Origin: a virus
DNA length: 44,029 nucleotides
Reading direction: 5' to 3' (one strand)
IMG/VR virus record: IMGVR_UViG_3300020020_000080
Location: 1-44,029 of that record
A program made the translations under genes and the position numbers. This document shows positions 4,784 through 35,966 of the stretch, one piece after another. Position 1 is the stretch's first letter. Every line of letters starts with the position of its first letter. The notes under the pieces were generated by a model, which ran no database searches, was not told where the DNA came from, and saw only the letters and a list, made by a program, of their open reading frames with translations.

Positions 4784-4812
4784 GCTTTAAGACAACTCGT
4801 CCTAAATAGCAA
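4784..4812 (-). promoter_or_regulatory. Leftward early promoter (PR-like)
   Basis: On the minus strand, TTGCTA (4807-4812), a 17-base spacer and TAAAGC (4784-4789) form a sigma70-type promoter, with six bases to the ATG of the Cro-like gene. Operator O1 fills the spacer and overlaps the -10; operator O2 ends on the first T of the -35. This is exactly the arrangement seen at the rightward promoter at 5280-5308, which strengthens both calls. The hexamers themselves are weak matches. Confidence 0.6.
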
Positions 4813-4860
4813 GGACATTTTGGCTTTAGACGGCAAATTGTCTTTAAGACATAGTGTCCG
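4786..4860. promoter_or_regulatory. Operator cluster between cro-like and repressor genes
   Basis: Three 15-base pseudo-palindromes fit one pattern, A(A/G)GACATTTCGTCCT or a variant. O1 is 4789-4803 (AAGACAACTCGTCCT), O2 is 4812-4826 (AGGACATTTTGGCTT) and O3 is 4846-4860 (AAGACATAGTGTCCG). A weaker match on the opposite strand at 4830-4844 may be a fourth. O1 and O2 centres are 23 bases apart, the same spacing as the operator pair at 5266-5303. O1/O2 cover the leftward promoter and O3 covers the -10 of the repressor's own promoter, as in lambda OR. Confidence 0.75.
4827..4855 (+). promoter_or_regulatory. Repressor promoter (PRM-like)
   Basis: TAGACG (4827-4832), a 17-base spacer and CATAGT (4850-4855) lie six bases before the ATG at 4862. 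Each hexamer matches the sigma70 consensus at four of six bases. Transcription would start at or next to the start codon, giving a leaderless mRNA, which agrees with the absence of a ribosome site. O3 overlaps the -10, so binding there would shut the promoter (inference). Confidence 0.5.
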
Positions 4861-4861
4861 C

Positions 4862-5179
4862 ATGGACTACATGGATTCGAAAGCCCAATACGAACAAGAG
4901 TTTATCGCTCGCGCCAAGGCCGCTCGATTAGCGACCGGGAAGAAGCAATGGCAGGTCGCCGAGCTGATGGGCATCCAGCAGGCTCAATATAAGCATTACG
5001 AGGTCGGCCGGGTTATCCCGCATCACCTGATCGGCCGCTTTTGCCTTATATGCAATGTCGATCCGAACTGGCTCCTCACCGGCAAGGGGACCAAGCCTCT
5101 GCCACCGCCCCACCTTGTCGAGCCTGAGCAGGCGCCGGTTCCAAAGGCCAAGCGCGCCAAGCGACGCAAGGCTTCCTGA
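4862..5179 (+). CDS. Short HTH phage repressor (CI-like, no protease domain)
   Basis: A 105-residue XRE-type protein. The helix-turn-helix lies at about residues 19-75, with KKQWQVAELMGIQQAQYKHY forming the core two helices and DPNWLLTGK closing the domain, a motif typical of the XRE repressor fold. The tail is Pro-rich, then strongly basic (KAKRAKRRKAS). I place the start at the ATG at 4862, directly beside O3; a second ATG follows at 4871, and neither has a ribosome site. There is no room for a LexA/CI-type S24 autoprotease, so induction cannot work by RecA-stimulated self-cleavage. It probably binds the five operator sites around it and maintains lysogeny (inference). Confidence 0.8.
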   Translation: MDYMDSKAQYEQEFIARAKAARLATGKKQWQVAELMGIQQAQYKHYEVGRVIPHHLIGRFCLICNVDPNWLLTGKGTKPLPPPHLVEPEQAPVPKAKRAKRRKAS

Positions 5180-5239: not shown

Positions 5240-5265
5240 GCGTCCTGAAATCTTTTTTAGAATTT

Positions 5266-5303
5266 AAGACATTTCGTCCTTGACGACGAGGACGTTTCGT
5301 CCT
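5266..5303. promoter_or_regulatory. Second operator pair (OL-like)
   Basis: O4 is AAGACATTTCGTCCT (5266-5280) and O5 is AGGACGTTTCGTCCT (5289-5303), the latter a perfect palindrome around TTT. Their centres are 23 bases apart, identical to O1-O2. They flank and fill the promoter at 5280-5308. They belong to the same site family as the cluster at 4786-4860, so one repressor probably controls both arms. Confidence 0.8.
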
Positions 5304-5449: not shown

Positions 5450-5643
5450 AGACCTATCCCCGCACCGTCTACTTCCCCGAGAACGACCGCCGCGTCGTCA
5501 TCAACATCATGCCCGGTCCCGGCGCCCGCTTCTCGGCAGCCTGCGAGGATGACGGCGACGAGGGGCGCCTGATCTGGGGTCTCGGCGACACCGAGATGGC
5601 GGCGATCGCCGACCTCGCCCGCGAACTCGAGGGCACAGAATGA
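5446..5643 (+). CDS. Small acidic protein, unknown
   Basis: A 65-residue protein starting at the ATG at 5446 with GGAG eight bases upstream. The N-terminal half is basic and beta-like (YPRTVYFPENDRRVVINI). The middle has an acidic patch (CEDDGDEG) and the C-terminus is a short helix. It is coupled to both neighbours by ATGA overlaps. I do not recognise the family. It lies in the operon read from the repressor-controlled rightward promoter. Confidence 0.6.
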   Translation: MKTYPRTVYFPENDRRVVINIMPGPGARFSAACEDDGDEGRLIWGLGDTEMAAIADLARELEGTE

Positions 5644-5972
5644 AGCAGTATCTTCTTATCGCAACACTGCTCACCTCGCCCGCCGCGGCGGCAGATCCCG
5701 ACACCCTCACCGCAGAGGACAAGGCGCTGTACCTGAAATGCGCCTACGTCCTCAGTGGTCACACATCAAGGGCAATCATCCCCACGATCGACCTGTCGGA
5801 CTGGACCCGCGAAGAACTGCAACTGTGCATCGAGCCGCAGCCGTTCGCGGAGGCACCGCCGGACGCGCCCGCGCTGGTGAAGGCAGACAGGCCGGTGTCG
5901 GACATCTGCACGCGCCATGGCTTACGCAAGGTCTACACCGACAGCGGGACGAGCTGGCGGTGCCGCAAATGA
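5640..5972 (+). CDS. Small exported protein, unknown
   Basis: A 110-residue protein with a clear signal peptide: MKQYLLIATLLTSPAAAAD, cleavage expected near residue 18-19. The mature part has four cysteines (about residues 34, 62, 89 and 107), consistent with disulphides in the periplasm. The ATG overlaps the previous stop (ATGA). No family recognised. An exported disulphide protein expressed from the lysogeny arm could act at the host envelope, for example in superinfection control (inference only). Confidence 0.6.
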   Translation: MKQYLLIATLLTSPAAAADPDTLTAEDKALYLKCAYVLSGHTSRAIIPTIDLSDWTREELQLCIEPQPFAEAPPDAPALVKADRPVSDICTRHGLRKVYTDSGTSWRCRK

Positions 5973-6601: not shown

Positions 6602-7363
6602 ATGAGAAAGTTACTTTTAGCGTGTACCGCGTTAATTGCATTAACGGCATCTGCGGATGCCGCCATCGTTCGAACCCTCGGCGGTCTGAACTGGACTGTC
6701 GCCGGTACTGAACTCGGCCTCGGAGGCGTACCGACTGGTAATCAGGTCGATAACAATCCGTGTATAATCTGTGGCGCAAACCAGCCCAACCAGACTAACA
6801 CGGCACTCGACTTCGGCTATACCGACTATGGCAACACCGGCAAAGTAGGCACCTTCGCTTATTTCTCGTCAGGTACCCTGCGCGATAAGGTGCTGGGACA
6901 AGACGCCATCTCCGCAGTCAACTACACCGGCCAGCAGATAATTGACGCGGTGGCCGCTCTCGGCGGCGAGAATGGCGCCTTCGGTATTGGCGTGGATATG
7001 AACGACACCAAAGTGGCTCAGACGCTGGAGAGCTTCTTCTTCCTCGACCTGACATCAAAGACGGTTCTTGGGTACTTCTCGCCCGAGCTTCTTGATGGCG
7101 TGCTGCTTCCGTCCGTTAACAACGGGACGGGATTTCCTGACTACACGCTCAACGGTCTGACGACCAATGGGCTTATTGCCGATCATGAGTATGCGTTCTT
7201 CGCGCGCATCTCCGGTGCGAACGACGGGCCGGATAGTTTCTTCCTGACGCCTGGCGTGCAGGCGGCTGTACCTGAGCCCGGAACCTGGCTTCTTTTAATA
7301 TGTGGGTTCGCTGGCGTTGGCTTCATGGCCTACCGCCGTAAACAGGCATTCCGCATGGCGTAG
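6602..7363 (+). CDS. PEP-CTERM sorted exported protein 1
   Basis: A 253-residue protein with an N-terminal signal peptide (MRKLLLACTALIALTASADA, cleavage near residue 20-21) and a textbook PEP-CTERM tail: VPEPGTW at about residues 223-229, a hydrophobic helix, and a basic end beginning YRRK near 246. Exosortase-type enzymes of the host recognise such tails, cut them and pass the protein to the cell surface or extracellular matrix. The mature region is Gly/Asn/Thr-rich and beta-like, with one close cysteine pair (CIIC, about residue 54). The ATG at 6602 has AGGAGA six bases upstream. It sits in the lysogeny arm before the integrase, the usual place for lysogenic-conversion cargo. Its substrate or ligand is unknown. 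Confidence 0.88.
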   Translation: MRKLLLACTALIALTASADAAIVRTLGGLNWTVAGTELGLGGVPTGNQVDNNPCIICGANQPNQTNTALDFGYTDYGNTGKVGTFAYFSSGTLRDKVLGQDAISAVNYTGQQIIDAVAALGGENGAFGIGVDMNDTKVAQTLESFFFLDLTSKTVLGYFSPELLDGVLLPSVNNGTGFPDYTLNGLTTNGLIADHEYAFFARISGANDGPDSFFLTPGVQAAVPEPGTWLLLICGFAGVGFMAYRRKQAFRMA

Positions 7364-7437
7364 CTCCCGCTCCGTCAACGGAATATCTCGGGGAGGTGGC
7401 TGTACTGCCTCCTCGATTTTCTGAACGAGGTAATCCT

Positions 7438-7785
7438 GTGACCCTGCCGGAAGCAACCACGCCGCGCGACCTAGCCAAGCACCTCGGCTGGAGCGAAAAG
7501 CGGTTGAGAAGCCTGGCGCGCCGCCTTGGCGCTTGCCGGGAACTGGGTAATCGTATGCTATTCCTGCCCGACGACGTCGCCGCCATCATGGAAGCAACCA
7601 AGCCATGCCCCTCAAGATCTATCGGCGTAAGGGAAGCACTGTCTGGAGCTATCGGGGAACGCTTGCCGGACATCGACAGCGTGGATCTACTGGCGCAGCT
7701 GACAAGGAAACCGCGCAAAGAATTGCGTCCGAGATCGAAAACAAGTTCTGGCGCCGTGGTCTTGATGGAAAAGAGAAGGCGCTAA
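7438..7785 (+). CDS. Excisionase-like HTH protein
   Basis: A 115-residue protein starting at a GTG (7438) with GAGG seven bases upstream. Residues about 5-45 (TTPRDLAKHLGWSEKRLRSL and following) form a MerR/excisionase-type winged helix that typically ends in FLPDDVAAIMEA, as seen here. The C-terminal half is basic and low in order, and is encoded entirely inside the start of the integrase gene in another frame (7605-7785). Its position immediately before int supports a recombination-directionality or int-control role. The long overlap may couple the amounts of the two proteins. Confidence 0.7.
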   Translation: MTLPEATTPRDLAKHLGWSEKRLRSLARRLGACRELGNRMLFLPDDVAAIMEATKPCPSRSIGVREALSGAIGERLPDIDSVDLLAQLTRKPRKELRPRSKTSSGAVVLMEKRRR

Positions 7786-8588
7786 CATGGCCGAAAGCAT
7801 GTGCGCTTTACATGGGCGCTGGAAAGTCGCCGAGGTTTCTCGCGCCTACGGTAAAATACTGGGGCGATGCGAAGGTTGCGGACATCAATTCTGGTTCTAT
7901 CCGTCAAGCGGCTATCGACCTATATCCGAATGCAAAAAACTCAACTCGCAATCGACAAGTTATCGTTCCGATGCTGGCAGTGATTAATCACTGCGCCGAG
8001 TTGGGGCACTGCCCGTACATGAAGATGAAACGCTTCAAGACCGACACCAAAATCAAGCAGCCCGTCACACTGGAATGGATCAATGTATTCAAAGCAAACG
8101 CTGACCGAGTGGATGTCGGAGTACTCGCCCTCTTCCTGTTCGCAACCGGCGCCAGGATATCTGAAGCTCTATCTGTCCGATGGAACGATATTGATCTTAA
8201 GCGACGCACAGTGCTCATCCGCCAGTCTAAGCTCGGCAACGAGCGTGTTGCACACATACAATCCGAATTATTTGTCGCGCTCGCGAACCTCCCGAAAGAC
8301 AGAGAGCCATTCGCCATTGCTTACACCACAGCACGCGATGCCTGGGCGCGCACGACAGAAGCAGCAGGAATAGAGCCGCTGACGTTTCATAGCTGCCGGC
8401 ATGGGTTCGCGACGGAGCTTGCCGGGAAGAACGTGCCGGTCAAGACCATAGCCAAATTAGGTGGCTGGAAATCGACGCAGCACTTGTTCAACACCTACCT
8501 GCACTCCGACGAAGATCCGACGCTGACGGATTTGCTTTTTGACACGGTGTGTCAATCCGACAAGCCCGGCATCAAGCGAAATCAATAG
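7605..8588 (+). CDS. int: Tyrosine recombinase integrase
   Basis: A 327-residue phage integrase. The catalytic set is visible: Arg184 in ATGARISEAL, Lys209, His262 and Arg265 in FHSCRHGF, Trp288 in LGGWKS (in place of the second His, a common variant) and the nucleophile Tyr298 in NTYLH. The N-terminal part (KIYRRKGSTVWSYRGTLAG) is the usual arm/SAM-like start for alphaproteobacterial prophage integrases, which supports the ATG at 7605 despite the 181-base overlap with the upstream gene. It integrates the phage circle into the host chromosome and shows that this is a temperate phage. Confidence 0.95.
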   Translation: MPLKIYRRKGSTVWSYRGTLAGHRQRGSTGAADKETAQRIASEIENKFWRRGLDGKEKALTWPKACALYMGAGKSPRFLAPTVKYWGDAKVADINSGSIRQAAIDLYPNAKNSTRNRQVIVPMLAVINHCAELGHCPYMKMKRFKTDTKIKQPVTLEWINVFKANADRVDVGVLALFLFATGARISEALSVRWNDIDLKRRTVLIRQSKLGNERVAHIQSELFVALANLPKDREPFAIAYTTARDAWARTTEAAGIEPLTFHSCRHGFATELAGKNVPVKTIAKLGGWKSTQHLFNTYLHSDEDPTLTDLLFDTVCQSDKPGIKRNQ

Positions 8589-8846
8589 GTTAAGGCACCA
8601 TTGCACGCCCCATATAGGGGAATACGAAAGGAACGCAACAGTTGAAATTGCTGAGTAAATTCAGGAAAGCCCCGTCAGTTCGGGACGCTTTTGACCGGAA
8701 CGGTCCAAGAACGTCCAGAAGATTGACACGTCACTGACACCGCCAGGTTCGCGGGACGTTCACGCCCACCATTAACATTAACTTAGCCGCCGGTTGACCT
8801 GGGACAGGATTCCAGCCAACCGTCGCCACATCATGGGGAAATTCAA
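8589..8846. other. Intergenic region after int, possible attP
   Basis: 258 bases without a gene between int and the second PEP-CTERM gene. It has short inverted repeats (ACCG-gaa-CGGT near 8695-8705 and CCCG...CGGG near 8673-8686, the latter followed by CTTTT and possibly a weak terminator for int). Phage attachment sites usually flank int, so attP may lie here or in 7364-7437. I cannot identify a core without the host sequence, and I see no tRNA-like 3' end. Confidence 0.35.
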
Positions 8847-9473
8847 ATGAGATTTTTATCGGTAGTTGCCGCGGCCGCTCTCGCCACCATGAGCGTTCCG
8901 GCTGCCGCCAACACAGTGACGACCTACTCAGCCGTCGCATACGCGATCGAGTACTATCGACCGTTAGAGCCAGGAGATGATTTAATTTTTAGCCCTATCA
9001 ATTTGTATAATCTCCCGAACGGAGGCAGCATTAGCCTTCCTGAAATAGGCTGGGTCAGCTATTCGCAAACCCACGAATACCAAAGTTCAATCGGTGGCGG
9101 CAGTTCTAGCTTAATATATTTCCATGGTTCTTTGGGAGGCGTCAGCGGTCACTATTACGATATGTCTAACAGTTGGAGCCCGGTATGGGCGTTTAACACT
9201 CCCCCGGTATCATTCGTGCTTGAGCAATGGACCATGACATCATTCGACTGCACGTTCATGGACTGTTTTGCCATGCGCCCGGATGCGGAGTTCGTCACGA
9301 TGTCTACAAGCAGTGATTGGGGCAAGGTCACTCGTATTGGAACTGTCCCCGAGCCTTCAACCTGGGCGCTTCTAATCCTTGGCTTTGCCGGGATTGCGTT
9401 GATTAGACGTTTCCGTCCCAGCCGTGCAGGTACAATTCCATTGCCAGCAAACTCACCTGTAGAATTTGGGTGA
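8847..9473 (+). CDS. PEP-CTERM sorted exported protein 2
   Basis: A 208-residue exported protein. Signal peptide at residues 1-22 (ending VPAAAN), then a Ser/Tyr/Gly-rich beta-like mature part with a CTFMDC cysteine pair (about 132-137). The PEP-CTERM tail is VPEPSTW at 167-173, a hydrophobic helix, and a basic end starting RRFRP. Unusually, about 15 further residues follow the basic cluster; they overlap the 3' end of the convergent GH9-like tail gene (9403-9473). The ATG at 8847 has GGGGA seven bases upstream. Patches such as 8975-9012 are clearly A+T-richer than neighbouring genes, which fits recent acquisition. Probably exosortase-processed lysogen cargo (inference). Confidence 0.85.
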   Translation: MRFLSVVAAAALATMSVPAAANTVTTYSAVAYAIEYYRPLEPGDDLIFSPINLYNLPNGGSISLPEIGWVSYSQTHEYQSSIGGGSSSLIYFHGSLGGVSGHYYDMSNSWSPVWAFNTPPVSFVLEQWTMTSFDCTFMDCFAMRPDAEFVTMSTSSDWGKVTRIGTVPEPSTWALLILGFAGIALIRRFRPSRAGTIPLPANSPVEFG

Positions 9474-12400
9474 ATTCGGAAGCGTAAATGATGCCCTTGT
9501 TCTCAGGCGACCATTCCCAATAGCTTGACGCCCCACGCCACGGGTTCCACATCTTGGCCGAGCCGGGTGTGGCATAGCTTTCATAAAGCCCGGTTGTATT
9601 GTCTGAATTGTAATTGAGCGGACCATCGGATGCCGCCGTACTGCCGGCGAAATTGTTAAACATCGATGATGTCGCCCAGGCAAAATGCCCCATGACATTG
9701 ATGCCGTAGATCGGCGTGGCGCCATACTTGAAGCTGTCCTCGTGCAGGACAATCCTGAACGGTCGCGGCCCCATCCCGGTGATGTATGCCTTGTTCGCCA
9801 GGTTGGCGCCGTGAATGAAGTTAGCACCCGCCTGCATCAGCTTGAGATTATCGGACGTTCTCGCCACCGTGTTGCCGTTCATGAATGCTTGATGCATATG
9901 CGCCACGACGTTCTCGGTCATACCCGCTGGCTCGGTCGTCCCGGACGTGTTTGGCGGCGCCTGACGCCAGAACATCCCCATGTAACCCATGGTCGATGCC
10001 ATGCACAGCGCGGGCTGAGGATTGACGTTTGACCGTGTCTGGATGTCGTTCTTTGCGGTCGTATTAGCCCCTGTCGTCACGCAATAATCATAACCGCCGA
10101 TATGTTCCTCGCCGATGTTATTGTGCATCGGAAGGGTGGCGAGCGTAAACGACGCACCTGTGCCGGCCCCGGTCGAACTCGCCTGTATGCATGGATTGGT
10201 TGGCGCCGTCGTGAATTGCCCTGTGTTCAATCTTAGCACCGCAGTAATCCCGCCGCCGCCATCCACGGCGGAAACGAGCAATCTGGTCGGCTTAACCACG
10301 CCTGTGGCGCCCGTGGTGACCAATGTGACGATGTCGTTGACCGCATGACCTGTTCCCGCGCTGGTGATCGTCGTCACGGAAGTCATCGCCCGATCCGTGA
10401 TAAATTTGCCATACGCCGAGCCGGCCGTGCTGCCAAGCAACCGAAATAGCGAGCCAGCCGCGTCTACCTTGGCGACCATCCCGCGCTTTAGAACGCCGGG
10501 ATAGCCGTCAATCTCGATCATGGCATTCTGGTATTGCGTCTCGGTCCAGCCTGCCTTGTCCCGCAGATTAAGTTCCCCTTTATAATAAGCATCGCGGGCG
10601 ACGGGGTCGGTGATAAAATTATCTGCCCATGCATAGGCCGCAATCGCACTTTCCTTGTAGTCGTCGCCCAATGCTGTCAGGCCATAGTCATAGGCTATCC
10701 GCGCCAGCTGCGCTGCATATGCGGCATAGAGAAAGTTCGTCAGATGATCGCGCGCGTAGATGTAGGCGTGAACGGTTTGCCCAGTCAGCCCGCCGCCGGC
10801 ATCTGTCCCGCGATACTTGTCAATGGTTTCAGGATAGGAAGCGATCGCCGACGAGAACTCAGGAAGCAATGGCGGCAGCTTCTGCGCTCCGATATTATGC
10901 CCGCCCCACACCGATCCGTCCGGCATCTGGTTGACGCGATATGGCTCGGCGAACCAGAACAGTTCATGAAACAACGGCGGCAGCGCATCAGTATCCGCAT
11001 ACAAGACAGGGTCCAGCACGGCGCTACTGAGCGGTACGGTGAACGGTGTAAAGCGCGATGCCTCGTCCATGTTGCCAAACACTAGCGCCAGCAACTTCCA
11101 CGCCGGGAAGTGATCAATCCCTGGTTCGTCATTGTCGCCGGCGTCCTGGTGCGCAACCCGGCCGGGATGACGCACGTTGGTAACCCAGCCATTTCTTCCA
11201 ATGCCGGGCGTTGTGGCAGGCAAAGTAGGTGCTGTTCCTACAGCGGTATAGGTGAACTTATCTGTCGCAGTTGCCGTCAGAATGGAGCCGGTGCCGTTGA
11301 GATAAGTCGCTGGTAGCGATCCAACCATTTGAACGGCGATGCTTTGGCCGATGGTTATTCCATGCGGGGCGGATGTCGTGGCGGTGATTGTAGAGCCAGA
11401 GACTGTCAGTGACGTAAACGTAAACGCCGCGCCGGCGTTGTAATAGGCACCGAGCCCCGAGCCTATTGCAGTCGGGGCTGACGGCGGTGGAACATAAAAG
11501 CTGGCGCATTCAGTGCAGAACAGCGCGACCAGCGTGCTGCGATAATTGGTAACACCGTTCTCACCATCCGTAAGCGACGAACCGCGCGTGTATCCGCTGG
11601 AGTTGGTCACGGCAATACCGTGCCTTAGCGTGTAGACACCCTCGTGAAGCTTGGCGGTGGACTGCGCCCATGCATTGGACGTGATCTGCATCGGGTCGCT
11701 GATGCCATAACCAGGGATGTGAAGGTAATATGTCCCGCCGCTGCTCGGCGTCCAGGCGCTGAAGTCCAGCCCGTAGACGTAAGTGCCGGCGCGGTTGGTG
11801 TTGAAGCACTTGAACACCATGTTACTGATGCCGCCGAATGCTTCGCTTGCCACCGGGGTGGCGGAAAAATTAGAGAACCCGCTTGAATTAAAGGCGATGT
11901 CGAAGGTGGTTGCATCCGCCCTTGTAACAACAGGAGCAAAATGGCTGGTAAGCGCACCCGTAGGTGTGCCCGGCGGGTTATCGAATTGCGTCGTTCCTGC
12001 CGTCATGCTGCCGACACCAAGGAAACGCACCCGGTCGTTGACCGCCAGGCTATGGCCGCCAGAGCATGTTATGGTCGTGGTTACAGCCCCCTTGGTGACG
12101 CCTGTAATTCGCCAGCCCTGCGCAAGGTCGGCAACGTCAATGCCGCTGTCATAGCCTTCGCCTGGCGTCAGGGCCGAGCTAACCCGCTGCGTGATGGTAT
12201 TGGAATAGACCGATGTCTTGGTGCCATCCAGCACATGGAACGTGGTCATGCTGTAGGGGGCGGCGGCGAATTGCATGGTGCCGTTGTTGGCAGCGCCTGG
12301 AATGCGCGCGGCCAAGTAGCCGTATTTGTGCGCGTCGTCAGGACGCTGGCCGATGTGGTTGACCTGGATGCCACCCGCCCTCGAGGTCTTGTCGTTGAAG

Positions 12401-12921
12401 GTGTAGCTGATCGGAGCAACGCCGGCGGTCGCGTTGCCAATGGCCATGGTGGCGCCTGTCGGCACGCCGGACAGTTTCAGATAGATCGTATGCCGCTGCG
12501 TGATCATGTAGGAATTCAGGCCCTGGCCCGAACTGGAATTGAACACCCAACCTTGACCACTGGCCTCGTCGCGGTAGTACACATTCGAAATGGTGACGCC
12601 ACCGCCGCCGGTCAGCGACCAGTTAGCCATGGTTCGCAGCGCCACCTTGTTGACGTAGCCCGCCGGATTGGGCAGATCGCTGAACCTGACCTCGGTGCGG
12701 TCCTTGCCCAGCGGTGTGCACCATTCGAGCGCGCCGCTGCGCGGGTTCGTCATCTGGAACCAGGTGACATACGGGTTCGTGTTGAACGTCCCGGATACGA
12801 TATTGCCGGGAATGATTGGCGGGTCTTCCACCACGATTGCAATTATGTCAGGCGCAGCCATCCACGCGACTTCGGCAGTGCTGGCCGCGGCGCCCCACCT
12901 CATCGTAAAGGTTTGCGGCAT
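9403..12921 (-). CDS. Tail-associated GH9-cellulase-like enzyme
   Basis: A 1172-residue protein starting at the ATG at 12921 (TAATG overlap with the gene upstream). Several features follow the glycoside hydrolase family 9 plan. A CelD-type Ig module precedes the catalytic part (YVYGLDFSAW and GTYYLHIPGYG, about 381-405). The block RVAHQDAGDNDEPGIDHF at about 588-605 carries the DAGD pair that holds the catalytic base. A C-terminal NKAYITGMGPRPFR stretch lies near 1044-1057, and WSPENKGIIYASEF near 1138-1151 supplies the expected acid Glu. GH9 enzymes cut beta-1,4-glucans. Three beta-rich insert modules (about 270-345, 500-562, 848-930) resemble domains common in phage tail proteins. The N-terminal ~250 residues probably attach it to the tail. 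Last gene of the late programme. The substrate could be cellulose or another beta-glucan exopolysaccharide. Confidence 0.7.
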   Translation of the reverse strand: MPQTFTMRWGAAASTAEVAWMAAPDIIAIVVEDPPIIPGNIVSGTFNTNPYVTWFQMTNPRSGALEWCTPLGKDRTEVRFSDLPNPAGYVNKVALRTMANWSLTGGGGVTISNVYYRDEASGQGWVFNSSSGQGLNSYMITQRHTIYLKLSGVPTGATMAIGNATAGVAPISYTFNDKTSRAGGIQVNHIGQRPDDAHKYGYLAARIPGAANNGTMQFAAAPYSMTTFHVLDGTKTSVYSNTITQRVSSALTPGEGYDSGIDVADLAQGWRITGVTKGAVTTTITCSGGHSLAVNDRVRFLGVGSMTAGTTQFDNPPGTPTGALTSHFAPVVTRADATTFDIAFNSSGFSNFSATPVASEAFGGISNMVFKCFNTNRAGTYVYGLDFSAWTPSSGGTYYLHIPGYGISDPMQITSNAWAQSTAKLHEGVYTLRHGIAVTNSSGYTRGSSLTDGENGVTNYRSTLVALFCTECASFYVPPPSAPTAIGSGLGAYYNAGAAFTFTSLTVSGSTITATTSAPHGITIGQSIAVQMVGSLPATYLNGTGSILTATATDKFTYTAVGTAPTLPATTPGIGRNGWVTNVRHPGRVAHQDAGDNDEPGIDHFPAWKLLALVFGNMDEASRFTPFTVPLSSAVLDPVLYADTDALPPLFHELFWFAEPYRVNQMPDGSVWGGHNIGAQKLPPLLPEFSSAIASYPETIDKYRGTDAGGGLTGQTVHAYIYARDHLTNFLYAAYAAQLARIAYDYGLTALGDDYKESAIAAYAWADNFITDPVARDAYYKGELNLRDKAGWTETQYQNAMIEIDGYPGVLKRGMVAKVDAAGSLFRLLGSTAGSAYGKFITDRAMTSVTTITSAGTGHAVNDIVTLVTTGATGVVKPTRLLVSAVDGGGGITAVLRLNTGQFTTAPTNPCIQASSTGAGTGASFTLATLPMHNNIGEEHIGGYDYCVTTGANTTAKNDIQTRSNVNPQPALCMASTMGYMGMFWRQAPPNTSGTTEPAGMTENVVAHMHQAFMNGNTVARTSDNLKLMQAGANFIHGANLANKAYITGMGPRPFRIVLHEDSFKYGATPIYGINVMGHFAWATSSMFNNFAGSTAASDGPLNYNSDNTTGLYESYATPGSAKMWNPWRGASSYWEWSPENKGIIYASEFTQILQVSLLAMELYLHGWDGNV

Positions 12922-14255
12922 TAGCTGATCACCGGTTGCCAGTCGATATAGTAAATCCCGGACCCGCCGACGCAGACGCGGATCGTCATCGGTCCTTTCA
13001 TGCCGGGCTGCGGCCACGGCGATCCGTTCAGGGTGGCCACCAGTTTGAACGGCGTGGTCGAGCCGCCCCACGACGAAGCGTCCGTGGCCACCGATGCAGG
13101 CGTTGACAGCGGAGTGTCTATTGTTGTGTTGGCTGTGGTCAGGATCGGACTTGCGCCGGAGCCTGGATATTCCACCTCAAGCCAGATATCGGCGTTAGTC
13201 GGCAGCGCCGCTGCAATACCGTAGACCGTCACCGTTCGGTTGGTGCTTATGACATCGTTCCAGATGATAATCGGACTGGACTTGAACGGCCGCTGTGGCT
13301 TGACCCTGCCGCTTCTTCCTGTCGCGGTGTCGATCTTCCATGACGTTGGTGTGGTGCCGTCAGTCGCGCCACCGGTTCGGACGATGGTCGTCTCGGTGGT
13401 CTGCACGCCGTAGAACGTCTCGCGAACTTTGGTATAGTTGAGCGCGCCGTTCTCCGACCGCTCGGTAACAATCGTAGCAAAATCACTTGTCTGTGTAGCG
13501 CCGTAGCGCGTCCATGACGTTGGCTCTTTGCAACCGATCAGCGAAATAAGGAGCACCCCGCCCGTCTGAGATGCCTGAAGCAATGTCCTTCCAGGCAAAC
13601 CGCTTAGGTCAACACCGCGAAACGTCATCATGCCAAAGGAACTGCTGGCAAACAGGTTATTAGGCGGCGTTCCCGTTACGGCGTTAGGTGTATTTATCCA
13701 AAGAAACTCACCACCGGCCGGGGCAAGATATTGTCCGGTGCTACCAAACGTCGCCGGCACGTTGTCCCATGTGGTTCGTGTCGATCCGAGAGACGTTACC
13801 CTTATCTGCGATGTTCCGCTGGTGTTATTGAGTATGACGGCGCAGTTCTTCAAATACCAAATTCCGTTGAAATGAATGTTTGACTGCCCGGAGCCAGTGC
13901 CTGCGCTGAAGATGATGCCCTCGCAATGCGAGACCACCCCTGCAAGGGTTGTATTGACTGCTGTGACATTTGAACTAAGCGTGACGGTTGGCGTATGAAC
14001 CAGCGCGGACGCTGGCGGGTTGCCGCCCACCAGTGCGGCAGTATGGTCTGCTACCATTATCCTGGTTGGCAACGACGCCGTGCCCAGCGCGGTCAGCGTG
14101 GTAGATACACCATAAGGCGGTTCGACATGATCGGCCGCGACGAATACATCATCTCCCGCGACGGTCGGCGATGCCAGCCCGGCCGCCAGCGTCGTCACCA
14201 CGGTCCCCGTCCAGCCGCCGCCAGCGCCACCGGACCGCACAAATCTAGCTGTCAT
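12921..14255 (-). CDS. Beta-rich tail appendage protein
   Basis: A 444-residue protein, ATG at 14255, the stop of the preceding gene lying directly beside it. The composition is Thr/Ser/Gly/Val-rich with repeated short strands (TVTLSSNVTAVNTTLAGVV, IHFNGIWYLKNCAVILNN) that look like a parallel beta-helix for residues 60-300. The final ~110 residues resemble a beta-sandwich (PFKLVATLNGSPWPQPG). No catalytic motif is evident. Coupling to the esterase and GH9-like genes suggests that it is a structural or binding partner in the same tail appendage. Confidence 0.55.
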   Translation of the reverse strand: MTARFVRSGGAGGGWTGTVVTTLAAGLASPTVAGDDVFVAADHVEPPYGVSTTLTALGTASLPTRIMVADHTAALVGGNPPASALVHTPTVTLSSNVTAVNTTLAGVVSHCEGIIFSAGTGSGQSNIHFNGIWYLKNCAVILNNTSGTSQIRVTSLGSTRTTWDNVPATFGSTGQYLAPAGGEFLWINTPNAVTGTPPNNLFASSSFGMMTFRGVDLSGLPGRTLLQASQTGGVLLISLIGCKEPTSWTRYGATQTSDFATIVTERSENGALNYTKVRETFYGVQTTETTIVRTGGATDGTTPTSWKIDTATGRSGRVKPQRPFKSSPIIIWNDVISTNRTVTVYGIAAALPTNADIWLEVEYPGSGASPILTTANTTIDTPLSTPASVATDASSWGGSTTPFKLVATLNGSPWPQPGMKGPMTIRVCVGGSGIYYIDWQPVIS

Positions 14256-34402: not shown

Positions 34403-35218
34403 TCACTGTTGCGGCTCTCGCGACGCACCAACTCCAAGCATCGCAGCTAAACTTCCCAACAATCCAGCCTTGCCGGCATTTGCCGGGTCGAACTGTGCGA
34501 ATCTGGAGCGGTAGCTTGTCGCTGGTGCCACATATTCCTCGTAACCACTGGAGCGCCGCGCTGGATTGCCGTCGCCGTATTTGACGATCACACCGTCATG
34601 GCCCTTGCCGTAGACTTCATTGCGCAGCCAATCGTCACGGTCAAAGCGATCCATCCCTGCAATGCGTCGCTTGTCGTCTGCGCTGATCACATGCGGATTT
34701 TCCATCTTCAGCTTGAGCGGCATGACATTCGGAGCGCCATCATCAAACTCTCGCGCCGCCTTCAGCATGGCGTAGTCGTTCGCCAGGTGAGGCCGGTTCG
34801 TCGCATAGATCGCATCACCGCCAAGAAAACCGGGATCATATCGAGCCGGGTGACCTTCAACGAAGGCATCGCCGGAAATCGGCCTGCCCTCGCCGCGGTA
34901 GACATCGCGCGTAAAGCCCTGCTCCGTCGCCCGCGCTAGCCGCGACGCCTCGTCCATCGGCACACCAATCTTGCCGCCTGCGCTACCCAACGCCCCCCGC
35001 TCTGCCATCGGCATTCCGCCGAGCGTTGCCAGCCCGGCCAGATCCATTGATCGGTTAATCACTTCCGGATTAGTCCGGCCGTCCTCGCCGTACATGCTGA
35101 CGTTGCCCTGGTAGACGTCACCCGGCAGCGTCACTGCGCCCCACGCATCCCTTGCCATGCGCGCAGGCCAAGTCTGCGCCAGCTTCTGTCCTAAAGAAGC
35201 AAGCGACATCTCAGGCAT
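34403..35218 (-). CDS. Leader-tagged putative ADP-ribosyltransferase effector
   Basis: A 271-residue protein. Residues 1-63 are a leader nearly identical to that of the next gene upstream (35322-35966; about seven differences). The C-terminal part resembles ADP-ribosyltransferases of phage polyvalent proteins: VYRGEG with Arg108, AIYATN (137-141) as the Y/S-x-T strand, EEYVAP with Glu227/228, and a closing SYRSRFAQFDP (235-245) often seen at the end of that fold. If active it would transfer ADP-ribose from NAD to a host target. It lies among head genes, before the scaffold, so it may be packaged like T4 Alt and injected with DNA (inference). Catalysis is not proven by these motifs. Confidence 0.6.
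   Translation of the reverse strand: MPEMSLASLGQKLAQTWPARMARDAWGAVTLPGDVYQGNVSMYGEDGRTNPEVINRSMDLAGLATLGGMPMAERGALGSAGGKIGVPMDEASRLARATEQGFTRDVYRGEGRPISGDAFVEGHPARYDPGFLGGDAIYATNRPHLANDYAMLKAAREFDDGAPNVMPLKLKMENPHVISADDKRRIAGMDRFDRDDWLRNEVYGKGHDGVIVKYGDGNPARRSSGYEEYVAPATSYRSRFAQFDPANAGKAGLLGSLAAMLGVGASREPQQ
35049..35218 (-). repeat. Leader-coding direct repeat, copy A
   Basis: The 170 bases 35049-35218 align without gaps to 35797-35966 at roughly 84% by eye. They encode the shared ~63-residue leader of two adjacent genes. The first 35 bases are identical; most differences cluster near the start-codon end. Confidence 0.9.
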
Positions 35219-35321: not shown

Positions 35322-35966
35322 TTACTTTGCGCCCAATGCCCTCAGATATTCCTGATACAGAGCAGGATAATCCTGCCCGATCTGAAGCACTTCATGCGGC
35401 GCAGGCTTCCAACCTTCGTTGATAACCCTACCGTTTCCCATCTCTCTTGATGCCGAGTTGGGCACCAGATAAACCGTGTCGCCCGCTTTCGGCGCCATCT
35501 TCATATCAACGATATTGCGCGGCTCACCGCCACGATATGCCGGCAAGGTGTTGACGTTGCCGCCTCGCCTGAAGCCTTCTTCCATAATCTGACGCTGAAT
35601 ATCCGCGGCATTCCCGCCAGCCCGCCCACGCAAATCGACGTGCTGGCTGTACTGATTATAAAATTGCTTCTCTGTCAGCGGCTTCATGGCGTCCCTAGAA
35701 CCCCTTACGATCCCAGAGCCTAGCACAGCCTCACCAGCCCCGGCAGGTATTCCCATCCCGCCCCCGCCTCCTGTCATTAACCCGGCTAGGCTCATCGATC
35801 GGTTAATCACTTCCGGATTAGTCCGGCCGTCATCCCCGTACATCGACACGTTGCCCTGATAGACATCACCCGGCAGCGTCACTGCTCCCCAAGCATCCCT
35901 AGCCAGCCGCGCCGGCCAAGTCTGAGAAAGTTTCTCTCCCAGTTTTGCCAGCGACATCTCAGCCAT
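35322..35966 (-). CDS. Leader-tagged effector-like protein, unknown C-terminal domain
   Basis: A 214-residue protein. Residues 1-63 are the same leader as in the gene at 34403-35218. A Gly-rich hinge follows (about 64-80), then a different C-terminal domain of ~120 residues with KQFYNQYSQHVDLRG, an AYRGGEPRNIVDMK stretch, AGDTVYLVP and EGWKPAPHEVLQI. I recall similar stretches in uncharacterised phage effector-like proteins but cannot name a family. The AYRGG element resembles the Arg strand of ADP-ribosyltransferases, without a convincing Glu motif. A 103-base gap without a gene follows before the next leader. Confidence 0.6.
   Translation of the reverse strand: MAEMSLAKLGEKLSQTWPARLARDAWGAVTLPGDVYQGNVSMYGDDGRTNPEVINRSMSLAGLMTGGGGGMGIPAGAGEAVLGSGIVRGSRDAMKPLTEKQFYNQYSQHVDLRGRAGGNAADIQRQIMEEGFRRGGNVNTLPAYRGGEPRNIVDMKMAPKAGDTVYLVPNSASREMGNGRVINEGWKPAPHEVLQIGQDYPALYQEYLRALGAK
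35797..35966 (-). repeat. Leader-coding direct repeat, copy B
   Basis: Partner of 35049-35218, offset by exactly 748 bases with no insertions or deletions. Such a repeat would allow loss of one effector by homologous recombination or gain of new C-terminal domains. Confidence 0.9.

Follow-up and report, generated by a model that had tools for sequence, protein, structure and literature searches.

Virus-encoded proteins with PEP-CTERM-type tags and the apparent exchange of C-terminal sorting tags within a virus-associated protein family

Why should a temperate phage encode secreted proteins whose C-terminal tails are of the kind sorted by bacterial exosortases? The question is raised by two genes, here called P1 and P2, in the window analyzed in this study, a stretch of 44,029 bp that makes up the full virus record IMGVR_UViG_3300020020_000080. 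The termini of the record carry a 147-bp repeat with one mismatch, and the contig is therefore considered closed. Matches to PHROGs were obtained for terminase, portal, head-closure, and major head proteins, with Pseudanabaena phage Pam1 as the closest relative of the terminase (50%), and a temperate gene set consisting of integrase (int), Xis-like, and CI-like genes is present. By its gene set, the record reads as a P22-like temperate podophage. One tail protein contains a pectate-lyase-like fold (PF12708), in agreement with the initial annotation, which had proposed a tail enzyme aimed at polysaccharide. In addition, we observed a pair of tandem duplicate genes (34403-35218 and 35322-35966; 82% over 191 nt), the former with a weak match to ADP-ribosyltransferase (ART-PolyVal) below cut-off. 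A search of Rfam gave no match.

P1 (6602-7363, + strand) starts at an ATG preceded by AGGAG and encodes 253 amino acids, with the signal peptide MRKLLLACTALIALTASADA, a beta-rich body, and the tail VPEPGTWLLLICGFAGVGFMAYRRKQAFRMA, where VPEPGTW is followed by a helix and RRK. P2 (8847-9473, + strand) encodes 208 amino acids with the signal peptide MRFLSVVAAAALATMSVPAAA and the PEPxxWA-type tail VPEPSTWALLILGFAGIALIRRFRPSRAG, whose C-terminus is slightly atypical in extending ~15 residues beyond the basic cluster; both signal peptides were called by a hydropathy rule, not SignalP. The tags score above the gathering cut-off of the Pfam PEP-CTERM model PF07589 (22.5 bits for P1 and 26.7 bits for P2, cut-off 20.7) and above that of NCBIfam TIGR02595 (20.7 and 25.7, cut-off 16), and fall just below the cut-off of 35 of the PEPxxWA-CTERM model NF035944 (32.3 and 31.7). 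Both proteins thus display the complete PEP-CTERM architecture recognized in the initial annotation, in which a signal peptide at one end is paired at the other with a PEP motif that precedes a helix and a basic cluster. As P1 and P2 are the only PF07589 matches in the record, and none were obtained in 14 control genomes, the tags are not due to chance.

No family match was found for the P1 body in Pfam, in PHROGs, or in a tag-free test against NF033554, the model of the floc protein PepA. Homology to PepA was rejected, since NF033554 matches none of 61 tag-free P1-family bodies and earlier weak matches ran into the tag. A PDB profile search gave no match, and the predicted structure of P1, of moderate confidence (pLDDT 66), gave no confident fold match in Foldseek (E > 0.001 throughout). 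The predicted structure of P2 (pLDDT 36) was unusable. No relatives of the P2 body were found, phages included, and the gene has a lower GC content (0.51 vs. 0.61).

Operator-like repeats TTTAAGACANNNYGTCC (4786-4860, + strand) are located between a Cro/YdaS-like gene on the minus strand and a CI-like repressor gene (4862-5179, + strand; phrog_4 transcriptional repressor, E 3e-11). A second operator-like cluster (5263-5303, + strand), which repeats those before the repressor gene, heads the arm containing P1, xis, and int, and copies of TTTAAGACANNNYGTCC starting at 4786, 4843, and 5263 flank the CI-like gene. Four matches to the repeats were found, compared to 0.11 expected by chance. In its sequence, the arm looks like the PL-type arm of lambda and would be shut off by the repressor in a lysogen; because the operator-like repeats flank the CI-like gene, its expression is likely to coincide with infection or induction. 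No promoter was found directly upstream of P1, and directly after it an intrinsic terminator with a 12-bp stem and a T run (7388-7416, + strand) ranked first among 11 sites, compared to 5.3 expected after shuffling. P2 has an upstream region of its own. The arm also encodes a small secreted protein with a C-terminal CTRHGxRK..SWRCR motif (orf5640; 5640-5972, + strand), which recurs within ~3 kb of P1-family genes in the contigs L203/L003, L208, L230/L034, and L240.

Behind P1 follow an Xis-like HTH gene (about 7440-7785, + strand), with a weak match to the excisionase phrog_66, and a tyrosine integrase gene (7605-8588, + strand; Pfam E 4e-26). The order along the record is thus P1, Xis-like, integrase, and P2, and the two tagged proteins flank the recombination genes as originally described. 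A GTG start of the Xis-like gene was set by homologues in L170, L171, and L240; the open reading frame first listed begins at 7396, and the start at 7440 is more likely because the terminator occupies 7388-7416. The integrase gene is followed by a conserved non-coding block of 176 bp (8586-8761, + strand) that is 90% identical in L240. Within it, a segment of 16-18 bp (8609-8626) also shows similarity to L170, L171, and L172 and may represent attP. The similarity to L240 ends at 8761 and P2 comes next, just past the candidate attP, and its end overlaps by 71 nt the 3' end of a large convergent gene (9403-13071, - strand) that lacks a family match and is assigned to the tail region by position. 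In a prophage, P1 and P2 would then sit at opposite ends. A search for attB found nothing.

Relatives of the integrase were identified in L170 (80% identical), L240 (78%), L171 (77%), and L172 (62%). L240 contains the same arm, with homologues of orf5640, orf5970, orf6334, xis, and int (42-78% identity), and its P1 homologue (47%) occupies a different slot, while L170 encodes a P1-like protein just behind int. In L171 and L172, xis and int are present and no tagged protein was detectable in the DNA compared. Because its slot varies in L240 and L170 and a tagged protein was not detected in L171 and L172, P1 is regarded as accessory cargo of the arm; in being accessory and carried by a temperate phage, it resembles a moron.

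In an alignment search, relatives of P1 were found encoded in at least 215 IMG/VR contigs. With three different members as queries, none were found in 50,697 phage records, and 72,556 plasmids likewise contained none. Among 80 members examined, 77 have a signal peptide and the other three are truncated by the end of their contig; in essentially all, the C-terminus consists of a VP-motif, a helix, and a basic cluster. In at least 13 other contigs the gene lies directly behind that of the large terminase, usually with head protein genes next. A small secreted protein (LHDKATGEA...; L242 3268-3552, L208 6771-7031) without family match was observed beside P1 in eight loci. Remote chromosomal homologues of P1 were identified in three of 385 sampled Alphaproteobacteria genomes, and PF09721, the exosortase family, in two of these three. 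After removal of the tag, two of the homologues remained homologous (E 3e-13 and 4e-7); these two carry VPLPA or PEP tags, and both genomes encode exosortase. As the chromosomal relatives are tagged and reside in exosortase-encoding genomes, we infer that the P1 family probably descends from bacterial exosortase substrates. No member was confirmed in GTDB representatives using peptide patterns from P1 and L003, and none was found in 392 genomes at family level, in a search without positive control. The P1 family is apparently undescribed and virus-associated.

PEP-CTERM proteins are commonly carried by metagenomic viruses. At least 119 stretches of viral contigs match a degenerate DNA pattern for VPEPxTWA, and 70 of the 82 pattern matches in the first 80 loci correspond to complete proteins with signal peptide and PEP-CTERM tag. 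Among the neighboring genes are those for portal, terminase, head, helicase, and recombinase or other recombination functions, and repeats of 57-143 nt at the termini show that several of the checked contigs are closed. An integrase is visible in only 15 of 48 PEP-CTERM-bearing contigs. Since relatives are located in late head operons and so few of the contigs show an integrase, lysogeny is not the common denominator. In a second large phage PEP-CTERM family, found in 23 contigs, the mature protein begins with ATLQIEVFDNG, and LQLSISxGxSTFTC marks a third, found in 20; these families were drawn from L011, L014, L015, L023, L038, L042, L046, L057, L062, and others. In INPHARED, the tag consensus gave one case, the PEP-CTERM-like protein MEPATLSLLFLGLAAIGIRRRFR of the isolated Marinobacter phage PS3, a weak but architecturally convincing match. 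No description of phage-encoded PEP-CTERM proteins was found in the searchable literature, which excludes subscription papers; within that scope, the view that no described phage system supplies exosortase substrates stands, and the novelty of such proteins is considered provisional.

Across the 80 members of the P1 family examined, the secreted body is kept and the class of the C-terminal tag varies. By our own regular expressions, 47 of 72 distinct bodies carry VPGPIxGAG[LI]PGL-like (GAG-type) tags, 14 VPLPA-like, 10 PEP/PEL/PEAxxW, and one another tag; with NCBIfam models, one VPLPA tag scored above cut-off (TIGR03370) and some others gave sub-threshold matches. Placed on a tree of the bodies, the tag class must have changed no fewer than 18 times, where three changes would suffice, and well-supported branches force at least seven changes for PEPxxW and at least seven for VPLPA. 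In L060, the junction VPGPTVGA-VPEPATWAMM reads as if a PEP tag had been superimposed on one of the GAG-type. Where a contig encodes two sorted proteins with unrelated bodies, their tag classes match in 12 of 12 contigs, a set in which seven pairs are of the PEPxxW class, six of these seven coming from contigs picked by the PEP motif; for five P1-family loci not picked by tag, the concordance has P = 0.002 (shuffled labels). Matched tags and class changes would follow if phages fitted their surface proteins to the host's sorting enzyme, and the repeated swaps suggest that these viruses rely on the sorting system that a given host offers.

The nearest genomic integrases were found in Bradyrhizobium, with 44-49% identity, and are not taken as a host call. 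Exosortase (PF09721) is encoded in eight of 61 Bradyrhizobium genomes, and PEP-CTERM genes in 13, including all eight with PF09721. PF09721 was present in none of the three genomes with the nearest integrases and in two of 15 with portal relatives; the prophages of these genomes are not tied to P1 or P2. Three Bradyrhizobium genomes (G073, G084, and G090; L184-L188) have one or two PEP-CTERM genes and lack PF09721. A prophage origin of PEP-CTERM genes in exosortase-less Bradyrhizobium was rejected, as these seem mostly chromosomal, beside ordinary host genes. No exosortase gene was found among the annotated genes of the phage.

The commonest tag of the P1 family is the GAG-type (C-termini, L201-L279), for which we know of no enzyme, and no mention of the motif was found in the searchable literature. 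It occurs in two of the 61 Bradyrhizobium genomes (tagged proteins at L280 8009-8554 and 14077-14862; L281 6033-6656 and 7001-7852). In the PF09721-less Bradyrhizobium richest in the tag, the tagged secreted proteins are grouped inside an exopolysaccharide island, and no exosortase-like protein was found among the proteins checked in the exopolysaccharide island of genome G106. Judged by its sequence, the GAG-type motif, which is common in phages, is apparently an undescribed sorting-like tail.

We propose that phages carry the P1 family between hosts and that the tag is replaced whenever the sorting system of the new host differs, a reading we hold with a probability of roughly 0.75. What the sequences show is the protein architecture, the residence in phages, the size of the family, and both the swapping and the concordance of tags. 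Following the published model for PEP-CTERM proteins (Haft et al. 2006, PMC1569441), the products would be exported by Sec, retained in the membrane by the tag, and processed by the host sorting enzyme; P1 and P2 would presumably be processed in this way, and tags would be exchanged when a phage enters a host with another sorting system. Counting against host sorting are the scarcity of PF09721 in Bradyrhizobium, the genus with the nearest integrases, and the commonest tag of the family being one without a known enzyme. That the family parasitises several C-terminal sorting pathways (PEPxxW, VPLPA, and the undescribed GAG-type), swapping tags on host change, such that the tag would record the host enzyme and point to an unknown sorting system, has in our estimate an even chance of being correct.

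What the sorted proteins do is more tentative. Phage-borne surface proteins, whether early or late, commonly block superinfection or adsorption. As the likeliest of the roles considered, P1 may form a surface layer during infection, and perhaps in the lysogen, that blocks adsorption of rival phages or alters the polysaccharide coat, although we place this at somewhat below even odds. The same guarded estimate applies to superinfection exclusion in general, where sorted proteins would cover or modify polysaccharide receptors and keep other phages off the infected or lysogenic cell; the wide distribution, which takes in phages that encode an integrase and others that do not, is consistent with it, and the polysaccharide-directed tail protein makes such a receptor plausible, but a resemblance to exclusion proteins already known was not found at the level of homology. 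A role during infection is favored over a purely lysogenic one because operators head the P1 arm and relatives adjoin terminase and head genes.

A change in matrix or biofilm is an alternative purpose that may be considered. The initial annotation regarded both genes as lysogenic-conversion cargo, by which the prophage would express P1 and P2 and alter the extracellular matrix and biofilm of the host. The temperate gene set, the position of P2 in a classic cargo slot just past the candidate attP, and the terminator that ends P1 are in favor of this, as are findings in cultured bacteria, where floc formation depends on PEP-CTERM proteins and biofilm on exosortase (PMC9850573, PMC12188702). However, CI-type operators head the P1 arm, no promoter was found before P1, P1 relatives occur in late head operons, most PEP-CTERM-bearing contigs show no integrase, and the tag-free P1 body has no similarity to PepA. 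The genes are real phage-resident genes for exosortase-type substrates, but expression from the prophage is doubtful for P1, and we consider lysogenic conversion unlikely.

It is improbable that the tails are simple membrane anchors without a sorting enzyme. Relatives include PF09721-less hosts, the GAG-type tag lacks a known enzyme, and a plain anchor could likewise consist of a C-terminal helix with RRR, but the repeated use of exact curated motifs (PEPxxW and VPLPA), the 18 class changes, and the matched classes per contig are hard to explain by a generic helix. Less probable still, P1 and P2 could be captured or misjoined host genes without phage function, as P2 adjoins the candidate attP, a position at which host genes are acquired by imprecise excision, has a lower GC content and no phage relatives, and P1 has remote chromosomal relatives, but the closed contig, the synteny with L240 and L170, the recurrence of P1 in the L240 arm, and the phage-resident family contradict the misjoining that the initial annotation had raised, and P1 and P2 are phage cargo. 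Capture of P2 by an ancestor is possible.

Compared to the PEP-CTERM/exosortase (EpsH) system (TIGR02595/PF07589 and PF09721; Haft et al. 2006, PMC1569441), the phage proteins share the signal peptide and the tail of PEP motif, helix, and basic residues on bodies that are mostly unlike one another, with tags of the PEPxxW subtype. The known systems are chromosomal and EPS-linked, whereas here the substrates are phage-encoded and none of the annotated phage genes is an exosortase gene. Several P1-family members carry the VPLPA-CTERM tag (TIGR03370), but the family also uses other tags. The PepA floc protein (NF033554) of Zoogloea and Aquincola is likewise a secreted PEP-CTERM protein, found in EPS, but differs in its body. 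With phage morons and lysogenic-conversion surface proteins, the family shares an accessory site near int/attP or between late genes, an own terminator, and an exported product; unlike these, it uses a sorting tag that belongs to the host and sits at the C-terminus, and this tag has been exchanged repeatedly.

The finding ties phages to a surface-sorting pathway that has been little studied experimentally. If the proposed reading is true, one body with interchangeable tags would be a natural experiment on the fit between tag and enzyme, including the GAG-type tag from the Bradyrhizobium exopolysaccharide island, and the tag class could help predict the hosts of uncultivated phages. Phages would then shape the cell coat of environmental bacteria via the host's own sorting enzyme.
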